Position numbers and translations under genes: made by a program
Notes under the pieces: generated by a model
Databases searched by the model: none
The model's input: only the letters and a program-made list of their open reading frames with translations
Told to the model about the DNA's origin: nothing
Source of the DNA: an uncultured Ruminococcus sp.
Lineage (GTDB): Bacteria > Bacillota > Clostridia > Oscillospirales > Acutalibacteraceae
Length of the DNA stretch: 42,666 nucleotides
Direction: 5' to 3'
Assembly (NCBI GenBank): GCA_902794395.1
Contig: CADBHB010000007.1
Span: 73,966-116,631 of the forward strand
In this document: piece after piece, positions 1 to 25,084 of the stretch
Numbering within the stretch: the first letter of the stretch is position 1
How the letters are laid out: every line of letters begins with the position of its first letter

Positions 1-120
1 GGTACCGACGAAACCACTCCCACCGGTACTGATGACACCACTCCCACCGGTACCGACGAAACCACTCCCACCGGTACTGACGCTACCACTCCCACCGGTA
101 CCGACGTTCCCAACCCGAGC
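1..120 (+). repeat. 24-bp tandem repeat coding for GTDxTTPT
   Basis: Units begin at 1, 25, 49, 73 and a degenerate fifth at 97, each starting GGTAC(C/T)GA and ending CCACTCCCACC. The first unit is at the window edge, so the array probably extends further left. It encodes the linker repeats of the partial surface protein. Confidence 0.85.
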
Positions 121-336
121 GGTTCCGACGCGACTTCCGCAACTTCTGCTGATACCACCGGTTCAGCGGGCGGATCTACTTCCGATGGCGGAAGCACCTC
201 AGACAGCGGCAACAGCGGCTACTCCGGCAACAACGGAGCTGTACAGACCGGTAACGCTTCCATGGCGCTTATCATTCTGCTTGTCCTTGTTTCTGCTACC
301 GCAGGCATCTACTTTACCCGTAAAAGAGTAAAATAA
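1..336 (+). CDS. C-terminal part of a surface protein with GTDxTTPT repeats and a wall-sorting-type tail (partial)
   Basis: Reading frame 1 is open from the left edge to a TAA at 334-336, so the start and main domains lie outside the window. It begins with octapeptide repeats of the form GTD(E/D/A)TTPT (about four copies, each 24 bp), a typical extended wall-spanning linker. A Ser/Gly/Thr-rich stretch follows, then NGAVQTGNAS, a hydrophobic segment of about 20 residues and a basic tail (TRKRVK). The same tail layout (NGAIATGQAS, hydrophobic segment, TRRRTQK) closes the protein at 1675-2973, so the two are probably paralogues or share an anchoring route. The VQTG motif resembles a non-canonical sortase signal; a plain membrane anchor is the alternative. 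Function is unknown because the N-terminal domains are missing. A hairpin terminator follows at 364-394. Confidence 0.8.
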   Translation, partial: GTDETTPTGTDDTTPTGTDETTPTGTDATTPTGTDVPNPSGSDATSATSADTTGSAGGSTSDGGSTSDSGNSGYSGNNGAVQTGNASMALIILLVLVSATAGIYFTRKRVK

Positions 337-3475: not shown

Positions 3476-4510
3476 ATGATGTCAAAAATAGCGCCGCGTC
3501 TGATTTTGACCCTGCTCATGGCAGCCTCATTTCTGTTTTGCTCTTTGTCTGCTGTCGGCGCCGAGGAGACAGACGCGCCGAAAGCCTCCGAAACAAGCTC
3601 TCTGCCGAACGCCACGGGCGAAAGCGACCTGAGCTTCGCGGGGGACAATATGACGCCTGTCCTGCCTTCGGGCGCGGACTTAGGCGACTCCATTAAAAGA
3701 GAATCTCCGCAGCTTTCCAAGTCTGCGGTGCCTGTGCTGACAGTAAATGCCATCTCAAATTATTTCGGCAAGGCTTACGCCGAGTATAACGAGTACACCA
3801 AAGAGGTCATTGTTTCTTATCGCCTCAAGGCTTCAAAGCGGCTGATGTCCGCCGACTGGACGCTGACCTACGACGAAACCGTGCTCGGCATCGACCCGAA
3901 CAAGAACTCGGTTGAGTCGATCTGCCCCACGATAGGTAAAGACGCGCTGGTCGATTTTGACGAGGAGGGCATGGTCTCGCTGTACGCCACCAGCCTTGAT
4001 CTCTATGATTTTTCCGCCCATGAAACGGTGTTCGCGCAGATAGTCTTTGACGTCAAGGAGCTAAACATAGAGGAGCCTGAGATAACAAAGGTCGATCTTA
4101 CCGTAAACAACCTTTGGGTATCGGAGCCGAATCCCGCCACGGGCAAGGCGATCCCGGGCAAGGAGATAGTTTTGGTTTCTCACAGCGAGGTCATCGAGAA
4201 CGACAAAACCGAAAGCGTGCTGGTTTCCAAGGTGACGTCGCTGACCAGTTCTACCTTCAACGAGCTGGACTATACTCGCGCCTCGGCAGATCAGGCTGTT
4301 TCTGTCGCCACTACGGCAGCCACCACCGCGCCTCCGCCTCCGCCGAAGCCGGTCGCCACTCAGCCTCAGCCTCCGCAGGATCCCAAGAAGGAAGCCCGCA
4401 TTTGGGTGCAGACTGGCAAGTGGTACATGGCGACATTGATACTGGGCGTGCTGTTTGCCTGTTCTACAGTGCTGTTTGTAATGCGCAAACGCGATATTTA
4501 TGATGATTGA
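3476..4510 (+). CDS. Secreted, membrane-anchored protein with a cohesin-like domain related to that of the amylase
   Basis: 344 residues. GGAGG at 3466-3470 serves ATG 3476 or 3479. A signal peptide (about 1-30, ending SAVGA) is followed by a low-complexity stretch. At residues about 85-240 is a domain that aligns with residues 840-990 of the amylase at 18046: both have SN(Y/F)F near the start, a VxYxLxxxK strand, then (A/T)DWxLTYD(E/N)TVL, a late VFDVK/VTFKVLK strand, a DL strand and EVIEN/EIVEN at the end. A Thr/Pro-rich linker (with PPPPPPK) leads to a membrane segment at about 316-336 and a short RKRDIYDD tail. The domain resembles cohesins, so the protein may dock extracellular enzymes at the membrane; this is inference. 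It has its own promoter and terminator. Confidence 0.7.
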   Translation: MMSKIAPRLILTLLMAASFLFCSLSAVGAEETDAPKASETSSLPNATGESDLSFAGDNMTPVLPSGADLGDSIKRESPQLSKSAVPVLTVNAISNYFGKAYAEYNEYTKEVIVSYRLKASKRLMSADWTLTYDETVLGIDPNKNSVESICPTIGKDALVDFDEEGMVSLYATSLDLYDFSAHETVFAQIVFDVKELNIEEPEITKVDLTVNNLWVSEPNPATGKAIPGKEIVLVSHSEVIENDKTESVLVSKVTSLTSSTFNELDYTRASADQAVSVATTAATTAPPPPPKPVATQPQPPQDPKKEARIWVQTGKWYMATLILGVLFACSTVLFVMRKRDIYDD

Positions 4511-17722: not shown

Positions 17723-18045
17723 TTATGCACCCCTCTTTTTATTTGTGGATTTGATTTATAACAGAAAACCCGAAGCCGCACACGCTTCGCGGTCTGTATA
17801 CTATATATAGTATGTTACGCAGCGGCAGACAAAAAATACAGGCTTTCATATGCCGCTGAAAAACCAACTTAGATTATATGACAAAACGACAAAAAAGTCA
17901 ATAATTTTTGGTTTATCGAAATATATTTGTATCATCACGTAATGTTGCACAAAAAAAAGCTTGAGAATTTGTGGGTTAAAACATATACAAATATTTATAA
18001 ATTTGGTATAATAATAATGAACTTTTATGAAAGGATGGTTTTTTG
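17723..18045. promoter_or_regulatory. Divergent control region between potA and the amylase
   Basis: No gene. A stem CGAAGC/GCTTCG (17771-17789) lies in the potA leader. A perfect 16-bp palindrome ATACTATATATAGTAT (17798-17813) also offers -10-like sequences to potA. An 8-bp inverted repeat CAGCGGCA/TGCCGCTG (17820-17827, 17851-17858) could bind a regulator. The amylase promoter is at 17984-18012. Confidence 0.5.
17984..18012 (+). promoter_or_regulatory. Promoter of the amylase gene
   Basis: TATACA (17984-17989; four of six consensus bases) and TATAAT (18007-18012), spacer 17 bp. The ribosome site AAGGATGG is at 18031-18038. Confidence 0.65.
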
Positions 18046-21000
18046 ATGAAAATGTTCAGAAAACTCGTAAGCATTGTTGCGGCTGCAACGTTACTTACGT
18101 CGTCAATGGCATTGTCTGCGTCGGTCAGTGCCGCCCAGGTGGACCCCACCTCAGCGGTATCCAGCGAGCCGCAAACGCAGGATAATGTCAACAACGGCGT
18201 AATCTTGCATGCCTTCAACTGGTCTTACAATTCAATCAAAGCAAACTTGCCGCAGATCAAAGCGGCGGGCTATTCTGCTGTTCAGACATCACCTGTAACC
18301 CAGCCAAAAGACTTCGGTCCCTGGTCTGACGTTGCGGGTCAGTGGCCGAAGCTCTATCAGCCCGTCAGCATGTCTATCGCGCAAAAGTCTTGGTTGGGTA
18401 CAAAGTCCGAGCTGTCCGCTCTGTGCGCGGAAGCCGACAAGTACGGTATCAAAATCGTGGTAGATATCGTTGCCAACCACATGGCTAACTACAAGGATCC
18501 CACATCCGGTACCATCAACAAAAACAAACTGAGCGACGAGGTCAAGACCTACGAGCCCACAATTTACAACAGCTATGGCACTTACTTCCACAGCGAAACC
18601 TATGATGCATCCGACAGTGACGCTTACACCATGACCCGCGGTCATGTTTCCGACTGTCCTGACCTGAACACCGGCAGCAGCGCCGTTCAGGGCAAGGTGC
18701 TCAACCTTCTTAAGGAATGTATCGACTGTGGCGTTGACGGTTTCCGCTTTGACGCTGCAAAGCACATCGAAACCGAAAGTGACGGCAGTGCTTACTCCAA
18801 CTTCTGGGCACAGACCTTGGATCAGGCTAAGTCCTATTACAAGGGCAAGACCGGCAAAGAGCTGTTTGCTTACGGTGAGATTCTGAATACTCTCAGCGGC
18901 AGAAACGTTGGTGCTTACACCAAGCGTATGCGCGTCACCGAAAACAAATACTCCGACAACATCCTCGCCGGTGTCAACAACGGCAGTACCACCCAGGCTT
19001 CCAGCACCAACTATCAGTTGGCGGGCAGCGCTAATACCGCTGTAGTTTGGGCTGAGTCTCACGACACCAACATGGGCTCGTCCGGCTCCGCAGGTCTGAA
19101 GACCACCTCCGGCGTTTCCGACGAGAAGATCGTCAAGGCGTGGGCTATCCTTGCCGCAAGACAGGGTTCAGTGCCTCTGTTCTTCGCACGTCCCGGCACC
19201 GCCTCCATGGGTGAAGCCGCATCTGACCTCACCTACAAGAGCACAGCGGTATCCGAGGTCAACAAGTTCCACAACGCGTTCGCCAGTGTTTCCGCCGAGA
19301 AGGTCGGCGTTTCCGGCAGCTTCGTATATGTAGCCAGAGGCAACAGCGGTGTCGTTCTCTCCAACATCAACGGCAACGCTACCAACGCTTCCGTGACCGG
19401 TACCGGTCTGGCAGACGGCGACTATATCGATACCATTACCGGTAATGCGTTCAAGGTTTCCGGCGGCACCCTCACCGGTAGAGTCGGCGACACCGGCGTA
19501 GCGGTAGTTTATCACTCCACTGCTACTCCCAAAGCGACTGCTTCCGTTGAGTCCGGTGACTTCACCACCGACACACTCACCGTTCAGCTCGGTCTCGAGA
19601 ACGCGGTAAAGGGCAGCTACGCGCTTGAAAACTACGCTCCCACCGAGTTCACCGGTTCTCCCTACATCAGAATCGGTTCGGACTACAAGGTCGGCGAAAC
19701 CATCACCCTTAACCTCACCGCGGTTGACGCGGCGGGCAACACCTCAAAGAGCACCTATGTTTACAACAAGAAGGCGCCTACCTCTTCCGGCATTTATGTA
19801 TACCTCAACCCCAACATCGCGAAGGGTTGGTCCAACATTAAGTGCTACATCTACGATGAGGACACCAAGAACAAGTCCATCACCTATGATAACGGCGGTT
19901 GGTCGGGCACCCTGATGAAGTTCGACTCCAAGCTCAACTACTACTATGTGGATGTTCCTATCCGCTGCACCCAGCACGTGAAATCCACAGGTGTAGCTTC
20001 CGAATCCGACTTCGACCTTGCTCACTCCAGCAACACCTACGTCATCTTCAACGGCGTTAAGAACAACCTTATGACCCAGTATCCCGGCGACGGCGCTACT
20101 CAGGCTATGAAGCTCAAGCTCGGCGGTCAGTCCCACGTCCTCGACGCGGCAAACACCTCCAGCTGGAAGGTCACCTCCATGACTCCCAGCCAGGAGCAGG
20201 TACAGGCTGTTGACGTCAAGAAGGGCGGTCAGGTAGTTGACGAAACCACTACCGAGCCCTCTTCCGGTACCACCGCTCCTCCCGAGCCTGTTACCAAGTT
20301 TGTGAAGCTCGGCGTATTCGGCGACGTTGACGGCAACGGTAAGGTTGACGTAAACGACATCACTACTATTCAAAGACACGTTGCGGAATTTGCTCCTCTC
20401 CTCGAAGGCGACGCCAAGATCCTGGCGGACGTTGACAAGGACGGCGACATCACCATCAAGGACGTTACCTACATCCAGATGTACCTCGCTGAGTATCCCA
20501 AGGCAAAGACCGCTTCCGTAGGCGAAGATTACGGCGAGATCCGTGAGGTCGATCCCAACGGCGAGAAGTTCAGCGTTACCGCTACCTCCAACTTCTTCGC
20601 TAAGAACACTGTCCAGTTTGACGCTGAAAGCACCACCGTCCTCACTGTTGCTTATTCTCTGAACTGCAACAAGGACCTGCTCGGCACTGATTGGATCCTC
20701 ACCTATGACAACACTGTACTGCAGCCTCAGGGCAAGACTTATATGCCTGATGTTCCCGGCGCTGTTTACAACACTAAACCCGAATCCGCTTCCGGCGGTA
20801 TCACCGGTAACTTCTCCAGCATCAGACTGGCTTCTCTCTCCAACGGCGGCAACCCCATCGGCTTCGTTTCCGTCACCTTCAAGGTGCTCAAGGCGAAGGA
20901 CACCACGGTTGACCTGAACGTAAGAGACCTGCTTGGTTCTACACTCAGCGCGGGCGAGACCACTTCTAAGGCAGCCAACGAAGTTGAGATCGTTGAGAAC

Positions 21001-23139
21001 AGCCATGTAAAGAAGCCCGACGCTACCAAGTATCAGGGTTACACCTCTGTATACGCAGGTTCTTATGATGCTTCCCGTAATGTAACCACCGATCCTAAGG
21101 TTGAGTACAATACGGTTGATCCCGATCCCACCACCGGTCCCGAGCCCATCACTGATGAGCCTCCCACAGGAACCAGAACCATCCTCTTTACCGATAACAA
21201 GGGTTGGGGCTCTGTAAACATCCACTTCTGGGGCAGCTCCCAGCAGGCTGATACCGAATGGCCCGGCGTTGCGATGACTCCCGCCGGCATGAACGGCTAT
21301 AACGAGCCTCAGTTCAGTTACGAAATTCCTGTTGACGTTCAGGGCATGGTATTCAACGGCCCCGGCGGACAGACAGTAAACGTTGATTATGATAACACCG
21401 TTACCGGTTGGTATCCCATTGACACTACCGACGAGCTCGGTCACTACAATGTAGACAGCTGGATCGACGACAATCCTTACAATCCCGACAAGCCCGACAA
21501 TCCCGACAAGCCCTCCGGCACCAGAACCATCGAGTTCACCGACAACCAGGGTTGGGGTACAGCGTACATCTATGTATACGGTCCCGACGGTGCTGAGAAT
21601 GCGGCATGGCCCGGCGTTCTGATGAACAAGAAGGGCGACAACGGTTACGGCGGCACCAACTATTGGTATGAACTGCCCACCAACTGCGACCTCTTTATCT
21701 TCAACAACGGCAACGGCGATCAGACCGTTGATATCACAGACGACGGCGTTTCCACCGGTTGGTATCCGCTCGATCAGAGAGATGACGCAGGTCATCTGCA
21801 GGTTGGCTCTTGGGTCGACGAAAGCGGCGGCGGCACCGGCGGTGGCGGCGGTGACCTTACCATCACCTTCTCCAACAACAAGGGTTGGGGCTCTCCCAAG
21901 ATCCACTACTTCGGCGGCTCCAGCGAATCCACCTGGCCCGGCGTTGGAATGACTTCCATCGGCAATAACGATTACGGCGAAGAGCAGTTCCAGGCTTCTA
22001 TTCCTTCTGACTCCACCGGTATCGTTATCAACGACAACGGCGGTGCTCAGACCATTGACATCACCCTCGACGGCGCTGTAAACTTCTACCTCACCGATCA
22101 GAACGGCGAAGGCAAGTGGAACGTCGGTACTTGGGGCGACAACAACGGTGGCGGCGGTGGCGGCACCGCATCCGGCGATTACTATCTCGTCGGTTACATC
22201 AACGGCGCTGACGTAAGCGGCACCGACTATGCCTTCAACAACGGCTCTATCACCATGACCTTCACCGAAGAGAGCTACGTCTGCATCAGAGACGCAGCCG
22301 GCAACTGGTTCATGGCTAACGGCTTCCCGGGCATGGGCGTAACCTCCACTACTCTCTACAGCACCTCTATCACCGGCGAAAAGTCCGACAAGCTTTGGGC
22401 GCCTGCTGACACTGTTACCTTCACTCTGGTTGCAGGCAGCGACGGTACCTTCCAGCTCAGCGAGGGCGAAGGCGGCGATAATCCTTACATCCCCGATAAT
22501 CCCGATCAGCCCTCCGGCGACACCAGAACCATCAAGTTCACCGACAACCAGGGTTGGGGCACGGTTTACTGCTACTGGTGGAACGACAACGGCGACAACG
22601 CTTGGCCCGGCACGCAGATGTCTCCTGCCGGCACCAATGATTACCAGCAGGCTCAGTTCTCCGTTGACATTCCCACCAGCGTGACCCATCTTATCTTCAG
22701 CAACGGCAACGGCACGCAGACCGTAGATCTGGATTACAACAGCACCTGCACCGGTTGGTATCCCACAACTCAGACCGATGGCAAGTGGAATTGTGATACC
22801 TGGACCGACGGCGGTTCCGGCGGCGATGATCCTAATCCTTCGAATCCCAGCAATACCATCACCATCACCTTCAGCAATAACAAGGGTTGGGGCACTCCCA
22901 AGATCCACTACTTCGGCGGATCCAGCCAATCCCAATGGCCCGGTGATACAATGCAGTCTATCGGCTACAACGATTATGGCGAACAGCAGTTCCAGGCTAC
23001 TATCCCCGGTGATACCACCGGTATCGTTTTCAACGACAACGGCGGTACTCAGACCGTTGATATCACCCTCAGCGGCGCTGTAAACTTCTATCTCACCACC
23101 CAGGGTGGAGATGGTAAGTGGAACGTCGGAACTTGGTAA
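18046..23139 (+). CDS. Multidomain secreted alpha-amylase with internal dockerin, cohesin-like module and five CBM26-like repeats
   Basis: 1,697 residues. ATG 18046 follows AAGGATGG; a TTG just before is in frame but unlikely. Signal peptide about 1-29. GH13 catalytic domain about 45-480 with DIVANH (D140, H145), nucleophile D236 (GFRFDAAKH), acid E278 (YGEIL) and D340 (ESHDTN). Then a beta domain (about 495-575), a starch-binding-like domain (about 580-720) and a dockerin at about 756-820 with two calcium loops (DVDGNGKVDVND, DVDKDGDITIKD). A cohesin-like module follows (840-990), then CBM26-like repeats (about 1044-1140, 1159-1256, 1271-1363, 1493-1586, 1604-1697), with a different module (YYLVGYINGADV...) between repeats 3 and 4. 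It cleaves internal alpha-1,4 bonds of starch outside the cell. Dockerin plus cohesin in one amylase recalls R. bromii Amy4/Sca1. It is monocistronic. Confidence 0.95.
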   Translation: MKMFRKLVSIVAAATLLTSSMALSASVSAAQVDPTSAVSSEPQTQDNVNNGVILHAFNWSYNSIKANLPQIKAAGYSAVQTSPVTQPKDFGPWSDVAGQWPKLYQPVSMSIAQKSWLGTKSELSALCAEADKYGIKIVVDIVANHMANYKDPTSGTINKNKLSDEVKTYEPTIYNSYGTYFHSETYDASDSDAYTMTRGHVSDCPDLNTGSSAVQGKVLNLLKECIDCGVDGFRFDAAKHIETESDGSAYSNFWAQTLDQAKSYYKGKTGKELFAYGEILNTLSGRNVGAYTKRMRVTENKYSDNILAGVNNGSTTQASSTNYQLAGSANTAVVWAESHDTNMGSSGSAGLKTTSGVSDEKIVKAWAILAARQGSVPLFFARPGTASMGEAASDLTYKSTAVSEVNKFHNAFASVSAEKVGVSGSFVYVARGNSGVVLSNINGNATNASVTGTGLADGDYIDTITGNAFKVSGGTLTGRVGDTGVAVVYHSTATPKATASVESGDFTTDTLTVQLGLENAVKGSYALENYAPTEFTGSPYIRIGSDYKVGETITLNLTAVDAAGNTSKSTYVYNKKAPTSSGIYVYLNPNIAKGWSNIKCYIYDEDTKNKSITYDNGGWSGTLMKFDSKLNYYYVDVPIRCTQHVKSTGVASESDFDLAHSSNTYVIFNGVKNNLMTQYPGDGATQAMKLKLGGQSHVLDAANTSSWKVTSMTPSQEQVQAVDVKKGGQVVDETTTEPSSGTTAPPEPVTKFVKLGVFGDVDGNGKVDVNDITTIQRHVAEFAPLLEGDAKILADVDKDGDITIKDVTYIQMYLAEYPKAKTASVGEDYGEIREVDPNGEKFSVTATSNFFAKNTVQFDAESTTVLTVAYSLNCNKDLLGTDWILTYDNTVLQPQGKTYMPDVPGAVYNTKPESASGGITGNFSSIRLASLSNGGNPIGFVSVTFKVLKAKDTTVDLNVRDLLGSTLSAGETTSKAANEVEIVENSHVKKPDATKYQGYTSVYAGSYDASRNVTTDPKVEYNTVDPDPTTGPEPITDEPPTGTRTILFTDNKGWGSVNIHFWGSSQQADTEWPGVAMTPAGMNGYNEPQFSYEIPVDVQGMVFNGPGGQTVNVDYDNTVTGWYPIDTTDELGHYNVDSWIDDNPYNPDKPDNPDKPSGTRTIEFTDNQGWGTAYIYVYGPDGAENAAWPGVLMNKKGDNGYGGTNYWYELPTNCDLFIFNNGNGDQTVDITDDGVSTGWYPLDQRDDAGHLQVGSWVDESGGGTGGGGGDLTITFSNNKGWGSPKIHYFGGSSESTWPGVGMTSIGNNDYGEEQFQASIPSDSTGIVINDNGGAQTIDITLDGAVNFYLTDQNGEGKWNVGTWGDNNGGGGGGTASGDYYLVGYINGADVSGTDYAFNNGSITMTFTEESYVCIRDAAGNWFMANGFPGMGVTSTTLYSTSITGEKSDKLWAPADTVTFTLVAGSDGTFQLSEGEGGDNPYIPDNPDQPSGDTRTIKFTDNQGWGTVYCYWWNDNGDNAWPGTQMSPAGTNDYQQAQFSVDIPTSVTHLIFSNGNGTQTVDLDYNSTCTGWYPTTQTDGKWNCDTWTDGGSGGDDPNPSNPSNTITITFSNNKGWGTPKIHYFGGSSQSQWPGDTMQSIGYNDYGEQQFQATIPGDTTGIVFNDNGGTQTVDITLSGAVNFYLTTQGGDGKWNVGTW
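21858..23136 (+). repeat. Near-identical CBM26-like repeats 3 and 5 within the amylase gene
   Basis: The stretches 21858-22136 and 22858-23136 encode modules that match at most positions (ITFSNNKGWG, KIHYFGGSS, FNDNGG/INDNGG, GKWNVGTW). Repeats 1, 2 and 4 are more diverged. This points to recent duplication of a single module and a site prone to recombination. Confidence 0.75.
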
Positions 23140-23187
23140 TTGTTTCCAAGTTGAGCGTTGTTTCAACGATTGCTAACTAAATAAATT

Positions 23188-23221
23188 CTCCTCCCTCGTT
23201 TTTCGGGGGAGGAGTTTTTTT
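23188..23221 (+). terminator. Intrinsic terminator of the amylase gene
   Basis: CTCCTCCCTCG (23188-23198) pairs with CGGGGGAGGAG (23204-23214; one G-T pair), followed by seven T residues. Confidence 0.9.
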
Positions 23222-23410: not shown

Positions 23411-25045
23411 TCAACCTTCCGTTTTCTCAAATCTTCTGATTCTTTTTCCGTCGCGGACGATGATCTCTTGGAACATCTTGTAGGGTCGCGCCCAGATCTG
23501 ATCAGGGTTTTGCCGGCTTTTGTACAGCACCAGCTTTTCCTCGGTCTCACTGTGCGTGGCAAAGCCGATGACTTCATACTCGTTGCCCTTGAAGTGGCGG
23601 TATCTGCCGAGCGTCACTTCTTCCTCTTTTAATTCCTCAACGGAATTATCCGCAGGCTTTTCGACCGGCTGTTCCGCGGGCGCCGCGTCAATATCAAGCC
23701 TAAAGCTTCCGTCGTTGACCACGAGGATGCGCGAGGAGTAGGGCGGCATGGGGATCTCGCACCAGCCGTTGCAGTCAAAGACCTCATTGCCGTTGAGCAC
23801 GTCGGTTAGCTTGGCGTTGCAGCGGGAGTCAAAGCCCGGATTCTCAAAGCGGTCGGTGAGGTTGAACATTACGAACACCGTTTGATTATCGGTAAAGCGC
23901 TTGTATACCAGCTTTTCGTTTTGTATGTTCACATTCTCAAACTTGCCGTATTTCAGCGCATCCAGCGCCAAACGCACGCGGCTGAGCTTTGAGATATGGT
24001 CGCAGAGCTGCTCGTTGGCGTTGGGTACATTGTTCAGGTCAAGGCAGGGGCGCAGATCGTAGTCGCTTTCCCAGGTGCGCTTGCCCTCTACGGCGAACTC
24101 GCTGCCGTAGTAGATAGACGGCACGCCGGGCATGGTGTAAAGCATGGAGTATACATTATATAGATGGTTTTTGTCGCGCAGCTCGCTGGCAAGTCGGTTA
24201 ACGTCGTGGTTGTCCACGAAGTTGAAGGTGTAAAGATTCTGATAGATGCCGCCGTTTCCGAACTGGCGGTTGAGCGAGTGGGCAATCTCAAAGTAGTTGT
24301 GGTCGTTGTGACTGGAGTAAATGCCCTTGTAGCACTCGTAGTTTGTCACGGAGTCGAGCATCCCATCGCGGGTCAGGCGGTTGTAGTCGCCGCCGACTAT
24401 CTCGCCGTACAGCCAGAAGTCGGGCTTTTTGCTTTTGCAAAGGCTGCTCAGCTTCTTGAAAAACTCGTTGTCGATAACATCCGCGGCGTCTATGCGCAGG
24501 CCGTCGATTCCGAATTCATCGATCCAAAAGGCGACGGAGTCGAGCAGATAGTTTACTACGTCGGGGTTTTGCAGGTTGAGCTTAACCAGGTCATAGTGAC
24601 CTGCCCAGCCCTCGTACCAAAAGGGATCGCCGTAGGGGCTGTTGCCGCCGAAGTTCAGGTTCTGGAACCAGCCGCAGTAGGGGGAGTCCCATTTTTTCTC
24701 CTGAACATCCTTAAAGGCGAAGAATTCTCTGCCTACATGGTTGAACACGCCGTCGAGCATAACGCGGATGCCGTTTTCGCGCAGGGTGTCGCAAATATGC
24801 TTGAAGGAGGCGTTGTCGCCCAGGCGGCAGTCTACCCTGCGGTAATCTATGGTGTCATAGCCGTGGCGGCTGCTTTCAAACACGGGGTTAAAAAGCATGA
24901 CGTTCACGCCCAGGCGCTTAAAGTGATCGATGCAGTCCAGCACCTTGTCCAGACGGTAGGTCTGCACGTGGTCGTTTTCCTTGGGCGCGCCGCAGTAGCC
25001 CAGGGGATAGATGTTGTATACGATTGATTCGTGAATAAAGCTCAT
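23411..25045 (-). CDS. Cytoplasmic GH13 alpha-glucan hydrolase fused to a DUF1653 domain
   Basis: 544 residues from the ATG at 25045, which follows AGGAAG; an in-frame upstream start at 25078 has no ribosome site. No signal peptide, so cytoplasmic. GH13 motifs are complete: MLDGVFNHVG, GLRIDAAD (nucleophile), WLYGEIV (acid) and FVDNHDVNR, followed by YGSEFAVEG and a beta domain. It resembles the alpha-amylase/neopullulanase group that degrades imported maltodextrins. After an acidic linker (EEPVEKPADNS type) the last 55 residues match DUF1653: LGRYRHFKGNEYEVIGFATHSETEE and IWARPYKMFQEII. DUF1653 usually occurs as a small stand-alone protein; its role here is unknown. It is transcribed towards the amylase and has its own promoter. 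Confidence 0.88.
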   Translation of the reverse strand: MSFIHESIVYNIYPLGYCGAPKENDHVQTYRLDKVLDCIDHFKRLGVNVMLFNPVFESSRHGYDTIDYRRVDCRLGDNASFKHICDTLRENGIRVMLDGVFNHVGREFFAFKDVQEKKWDSPYCGWFQNLNFGGNSPYGDPFWYEGWAGHYDLVKLNLQNPDVVNYLLDSVAFWIDEFGIDGLRIDAADVIDNEFFKKLSSLCKSKKPDFWLYGEIVGGDYNRLTRDGMLDSVTNYECYKGIYSSHNDHNYFEIAHSLNRQFGNGGIYQNLYTFNFVDNHDVNRLASELRDKNHLYNVYSMLYTMPGVPSIYYGSEFAVEGKRTWESDYDLRPCLDLNNVPNANEQLCDHISKLSRVRLALDALKYGKFENVNIQNEKLVYKRFTDNQTVFVMFNLTDRFENPGFDSRCNAKLTDVLNGNEVFDCNGWCEIPMPPYSSRILVVNDGSFRLDIDAAPAEQPVEKPADNSVEELKEEEVTLGRYRHFKGNEYEVIGFATHSETEEKLVLYKSRQNPDQIWARPYKMFQEIIVRDGKRIRRFEKTEG

Positions 25046-25084
25046 GTGCTTCTTCCTTTCCTGTGTGTTCTCACACAAGTACCT

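Follow-up and report, generated by a model that had tools for sequence, protein, structure and literature searches.

The window, a stretch of 42,666 nucleotides from the genome of an uncultured Ruminococcus sp. (2.2 Mb in 51 contigs), carries at 18046..23139 on the plus strand a gene for a 1697-aa GH13 amylase, predicted to be secreted, with both a dockerin and a cohesin. Its open reading frame is 18043..23139 with the ATG at 18046, and an open reading frame on the minus strand, 19744-23166, is taken as the shadow of this gene. The gene has the appearance of a transcription unit of its own because an ABC transporter on the opposite strand lies 5' of it and a convergent GH13 gene lies 3' of it, and because it is preceded by a promoter-like site (17984-18012) and followed by a terminator-like hairpin with a T-run (23188-23214), both of which are consensus matches only. 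At 23411-25078 on the minus strand is a GH13 enzyme with a DUF1653 domain fused at its C-terminus (residues 491-552), and the top NCBIfam match of this enzyme is cyclomaltodextrinase, far under the cut-off of that model.

The order of modules in the amylase is GH13, Ig-like domain, CBM26, dockerin, cohesin, three CBM26, a module of about 100 aa and two CBM26, with a signal-peptide-like N-terminus recognized by eye (residues 1-30; 18046..18135). The catalytic domain (49-490; 18190..19515) matches PF00128 at residues 116-283 (8.4e-15, whole protein), and D236, E278, and D340, which we take to be the Asp/Glu/Asp catalytic triad of GH13, align with B. subtilis amylase (1ua7). The family match and the aligned triad place the protein in the GH13 alpha-amylase family and its activity is predicted. 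The Ig-like domain (494-576; 19525..19773) is our own reading of a stretch with no Pfam family; it resembles a stretch of R. bromii Sas6 (7uwu, 4e-8) and is colinear with Amy16. CBM26 was matched by Pfam in six stretches (3e-56, whole protein). The one that precedes the dockerin (582-709; 19789..20172) is weak when taken alone, its match at 593-673 having an E-value of 8.8e-5 and 23 bits against the Pfam cut-off of 28.1, and the other five lie after the cohesin within 21073-23136, namely at 1044-1142 (21175..21471; borders drawn by motif), 1160-1259 (21523..21822), 1271-1366 (21856..22143), 1494-1589 (22525..22812), and 1605-1697 (22858..23136). The module of about 100 aa (1376-1477; 22171..22476) lies before the last two of these; no Pfam family was found for 22060-22380, and in orthologs a match to this module recurs in the same position. 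The dockerin (756-818; 20311..20499) matches Dockerin_1 (PF00404) at 759-814 with E-values of 4.5e-7 for the whole protein and 2.6e-9 for the segment alone, both of its calcium loops are complete (D760-D762-N764..D771 and D795-D797-D799..D806), and three helices are seen in the dockerin part of a tandem dockerin-cohesin structure model; it is a type I dockerin. About 22 residues link it to the cohesin (841-1005; 20566..21060). These results agree with the first-pass annotation, which had read in the protein a GH13 domain, an internal dockerin with two intact calcium loops, and five CBM26-like repeats at the end, to which the weak CBM26 ahead of the dockerin is now added. Its remark that dockerins usually sit at an end carries less weight, since the dockerins of R. 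bromii Amy16, Amy10, and Amy12 are internal as given in Table 1 of PMC9112005.

In the window copy no Pfam family was found for residues 841-1005 at E up to 10, and when the genome was searched with PF00963 this module was not among the 7 places found. The same family recovers 5 of the 16 aligned copies of the module at E 1, the window copy being among those missed. When residues 841-1005 were compared by phmmer with the PDB, 7uvg, named 'Coh5', was matched at 6.5e-8, and a profile of the module matched 7uvg at 3.7e-22 and the cohesin of R. bromii Amy4 at E 1.1e-15, the identity to the nearest solved cohesins being only 26-28%. The predicted fold is the cohesin beta-sandwich, with a pTM of 0.82 for the cohesin alone. 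Sequence and predicted structure thus identify the module, at first called cohesin-like, as a true cohesin of the R. bromii Sca5/Amy4 class. The profile search and structure prediction that had been proposed as checks both lead to this, though PF00963 misses the window copy. Over the 16 copies there are 22 invariant columns, and dN/dS over the first cohesin is 0.06-0.33 in ten ortholog pairs compared to 0.07-0.20 over GH13 in the same pairs. The first cohesin is kept by purifying selection.

The PDB chain nearest to the whole protein is R. bromii Amy16 (9qf9, 5e-89). In two near kin of R. bromii, G061 and G032, which were found within the window genome's own genus, the closest protein is a gene product of 1061 and 1068 aa, respectively, with 55% identity compared to 36% for Amy16, and both genomes hold Amy16 as a separate gene (99.1 and 98.6% over 424 residues). 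An Amy16 ortholog is thus ruled out, Amy16 being a separate paralog with about 35% identity over GH13. R. bromii Amy9 is listed as a protein of 1056 aa with a signal peptide, GH13, CBM26, and dockerin in that order (PMC9112005 Table 1), and because the 1061-aa protein of G061 fits Amy9 in length and order the window protein was named Amy9-type. Judged by sequence it is the ortholog of this Amy9-sized protein, the name Amy9 itself resting on size and module order. The place of the Amy4 (Sca1) ortholog in this genome is taken by another gene, L149 on contig C20 (9qf3, E 3.3e-242), which has the layout GH13-CBM26-Doc-CBM26 and in which the profile finds no cohesin at E 1 with filters off. When the window protein was compared with the PDB, 9qf3 was absent among the best 60 of 92 matches, and its dockerin precedes its cohesin whereas in Amy4 the cohesin comes before a C-terminal dockerin.

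A search of the genome for further dockerins, as had been suggested in the first-pass annotation, gave 59 places of which 55 were over the Pfam cut-off, and the same search of control genomes gave matches in 5 of 14, with 2 over the cut-off. At least six of the 59 dockerin proteins bear GH13 or CBM26, and these are the window protein, L149, L171 (GH13-Doc-CBM26), L154 (GH13-Doc), L124 (two CBM26 and a dockerin), and L177. The last (L177:2290-4890) is an odd candidate for the starch complex with a CotH-kinase domain, CBM26, and a dockerin match that was over the cut-off in the genome search and unlisted at E 0.001 in the protein annotation. About 18 kb upstream of the amylase gene on the same contig is a Sca5-like scaffoldin (L084:8356-12294) whose gene starts outside the window and whose C-terminus is at 1..336 on the plus strand. 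It has X25 modules and, by profile, three cohesins, two of which are over or at the Pfam cut-off; there are assembly gaps (N) within its sequence, and its C-terminus is Thr/Pro-rich followed by VQTG, a hydrophobic stretch, and RKR. A single-cohesin protein at 3476..4510 on the plus strand has a Pro-rich linker and also ends in VQTG, a hydrophobic stretch, and RKR. Its cohesin is under the cut-off with PF00963 (0.002) and is matched by profile A1 at 2.7e-20, and the protein has a weak NCBIfam sortase-dependent match, under the cut-off of that model. These two proteins are possibly wall-anchored docking sites, VQTG being read as a putative sortase motif from its setting. Other proteins with cohesin and dockerin are one of 269 aa on contig C1, one of 483 aa with two cohesins on C9, and one of 322 aa with a partial dockerin on C20. 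The top PF00963 match of the genome (1.9e-6) is in a 262-aa frame (L001; G000 C1:112004-112330) that adjoins a dockerin-bearing LRR protein.

Within the genus, the module was matched at E 1e-6 in 69 of 161 genomes. The GH13 query, which also picks up other GH13 paralogs, has matches at 1e-60 in 157 genomes, and Amy9-type proteins were annotated from 53; for the Amy4-type, 117 genomes have a match and proteins from 66 were annotated. The annotated set consists mostly of best-matching loci; some Amy4 loci were chosen for cohesin hits in the same frame, and in one batch of 20 stretches about half were selected because a cohesin hit shared their frame. Rows with less than 380 aa of GH13 match were excluded, which removed the Amy9-type protein of G027. 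Of the Amy9-type proteins 27 have a cohesin, 23 are without it, and 3 are cut, those counted as being without it in G129, G157, G029, and G030 having been read up to a point 19-149 residues short of the frame end. Complete Amy9-type proteins without a cohesin are found in G109 and G006, which are 67-68% identical over GH13 to CBM26. For the Amy4-type the corresponding numbers are 15 with a cohesin, 41 without, and 10 cut or unclear. Among the 30 Amy4-type loci nearest L149 a dockerin is present in 28, two being cut ahead of it, and a cohesin in one (G027). When the 36 genomes in which both proteins could be classified were compared, the cohesin was on the Amy9-type alone in 20, on the Amy4-type alone in 12, on neither in 4 (G008, G066, G099, and G102), and on both in none. 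In G066, a Coh-Doc piece lies in an adjoining frame. Both are with a cohesin in G027, which is outside the 36, where a split Amy9-type gene is Doc-Coh and the Amy4-type is Coh-Doc. With kinship ignored, Fisher's p for this exclusivity is 1.5e-6. On a tree of the Amy4 GH13 there are 3 state changes for Amy4 and 2 for the Amy9-type with just one independent pair, and the exclusivity can therefore not be read as repeated evolution. The cohesin thus seems to be placed on the Amy9-type or the Amy4-type protein and rarely on both, and this pattern is mainly one clade split.

Several arrangements of these modules were seen among the relatives. The window protein is of the kind Doc-Coh-CBM26, and Doc-Coh-Coh was found in G087, G115, G127, G092, G080, G123, and G106. 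In G137 (L064) two consecutive dockerins precede the cohesin and there is no CBM26 tail, and in G143, G120, and G108 (L075, L076, and L077) the dockerin is flanked by cohesins. A gene for a 306-aa Coh-Doc protein (L191, G135) directly adjoins an Amy4-type gene. A search of the family of G038, aimed at reaching R. bromii, gave 0 of 4, and a search of a sample of the order gave 3 of 394, all from the window genome's own genus. The named genome records of 17 loci are all of uncultured Ruminococcus, Clostridiales, or Clostridia, and 14 of these have RUG isolate names, which presumably stand for rumen.

The origin of the cohesin was examined in a tree of 86 cohesins made by a quick method from short sequences. 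In this tree 16 of 18 Amy4-type cohesins are in one part, the support for the division being 79%. The window cohesin clusters with ten orthologs (98%), and this cluster is joined by the Coh-Doc-Coh set and by six cohesins of scaffoldins (80% SH-aLRT, the inner order being open), five of which are the first of their protein, including the first of the genome's own Sca5-like scaffoldin. Forcing all Amy4-type and Amy9-type cohesins into one clade cost 184 log units and was rejected (p-AU 6.6e-61), and with it a transfer of the cohesin from Amy4, while a single clade of all Amy9-type cohesins was not rejected (p-AU 0.07). Since the joint clade is rejected, a separate gain of the cohesin on the Amy9-type, perhaps from a scaffoldin cohesin, is on the sequences more likely than a move from Amy4.

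A probable explanation of these observations is that the window protein, which from sequence and models is a secreted Amy9-type GH13 amylase with a dockerin, a cohesin, and six CBM26, serves as an enzyme-adaptor scaffoldin in the amylosome of a congener of R. bromii. For R. bromii itself, strong binding of a Sca5 cohesin by the Amy4 and Amy9 dockerins has been reported, as has binding of the Amy4 cohesin by the Amy16 dockerin (PMC5814915). By analogy, the dockerin of the window protein would plug calcium-dependently into the cohesin of an anchored scaffoldin, for which the Sca5-like protein and the single-cohesin protein are candidates, the CBM26 modules would hold starch, and the cohesin would accept a dockerin from one more enzyme, such as the Amy4-type enzyme of this genome or another of its GH13-dockerin enzymes, so that one scaffoldin socket would hold two or more enzymes. 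In this clade the job of Amy4 (Sca1) would then be done by an Amy9-type enzyme by way of a separately gained cohesin. The window dockerin is placed among this genome's general dockerins with no partner prominent, and the second nearest dockerin to it is that of a scaffoldin; its recognition residues gave no clear separation between the possible modes of binding.

Because the adaptor explanation leaves the choice of partner open, it overlaps with one in which the cohesin binds the dockerin of the next molecule, thereby forming chains of starch-binding amylases that perhaps start at the anchored scaffoldin, and the chances we give to the two need not add up to certainty. Such chains are conceivable, though we rather doubt them. 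Cohesin and dockerin are within one chain, Amy4 of R. bromii has been suggested to have the same potential (PMC5814915, Fig. 4 legend), and as the window cohesin groups with scaffoldin cohesins the dockerin, if it binds those, may bind its own cohesin too; however, the support for that grouping is only 80%, and anchoring and the loading of enzymes would face competition from free self-binding. It is unlikely, but worth stating, that through the independent gain of a cohesin on the Amy9-type a self-assembled wall-anchored polymer of catalytic starch-binding units replaced Amy4 as the backbone of the amylosome in this clade. If instead the dockerin bound the cohesin of its own molecule, the protein would be closed until a competitor comes, and the short join between the adjacent modules would allow for this. 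We consider it very improbable, as the tandem model, from one alignment of 11 sequences, has a pTM of 0.62 against that of the cohesin alone and shows two well-folded halves with no confident packing, which is weak evidence that concerns cis packing and says nothing on binding in trans.

The cohesin may also have stopped binding dockerins and be a spacer or a starch-side module. That the window copy is unrecognized by Pfam, its low identity to solved cohesins, and the two close relatives without it (G109 and G006) would fit this, but the invariant columns, the low dN/dS, and the seven relatives with tandem cohesins in the same position make it improbable. The last alternative, to which we give practically no credence, is that the window protein is no more than this genome's ortholog of R. 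bromii Amy4 (Sca1). The first-pass annotation had pointed to Amy4 as likewise joining amylase, dockerin, and cohesin; CBM26 is common to both as well, and as a possible mode of working this likeness stands; as homology it does not, because L149, which is without a cohesin, is the Amy4 ortholog, the module order differs, and one clade of Amy4-type and Amy9-type cohesins is rejected.

In the degradation of resistant starch R. bromii is a keystone species, and its amylosome was reportedly first described by Ze et al. in 2015. Amy4, like the window protein read as an adaptor, combines GH13, CBM26, a cohesin of the same class, and a dockerin in a single secreted amylase, and it gave the most peptide matches in EDTA washes of R. 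bromii cells (PMC9112005); an adaptor role and self-aggregation have been proposed for it (PMC5814915). It differs from the window protein in being of another GH13 type with a C-terminal Coh-Doc and two CBM26 (PMC9112005 Table 1) as opposed to Doc-Coh-CBM26, and in the tree its cohesin falls elsewhere, the division being supported at only 79%. Amy9 shares the order GH13-CBM26-Doc by its description in the same table, and the Amy9-sized protein of G061, to which the 55% identity refers, lacks a cohesin and shows a single weak CBM26 match beyond its dockerin, where the window protein has a cohesin and five CBM26. Amy16 has a similar GH13-CBM26-internal dockerin-CBM26 order but is a separate paralog, and Table 1 of PMC9112005 lists no cohesin for it. 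The Sca5 cohesins of R. bromii (7uvg, 7urp), unlike that of the window protein, are borne by a sortase-anchored scaffoldin (PMC5814915). Among the matches listed in a full-text literature search, no Amy9-type or Amy16-type amylase with a cohesin was described in the text returned. A comparable protein outside the amylosome is ScaA of Acetivibrio cellulolyticus, the enzyme part of which is presumably GH9 and which differs in being a primary cellulosome scaffoldin with seven cohesins. Like the window protein, it is a scaffoldin with cohesins, a dockerin, and an intrinsic enzyme, a cellulase (PMC3413522).

In these related species an enzyme-scaffoldin of this kind is built on a different amylase and bears a cohesin of another branch, and their Amy4 is without a cohesin. 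This suggests that an amylosome needs one cohesin-bearing amylase and that which amylase bears the cohesin can change. A comparative test of amylosome architecture is thereby made possible, for which natural Doc-Coh, Doc-Coh-Coh, Coh-Doc-Coh, and Doc-Doc-Coh variants are available to measure.
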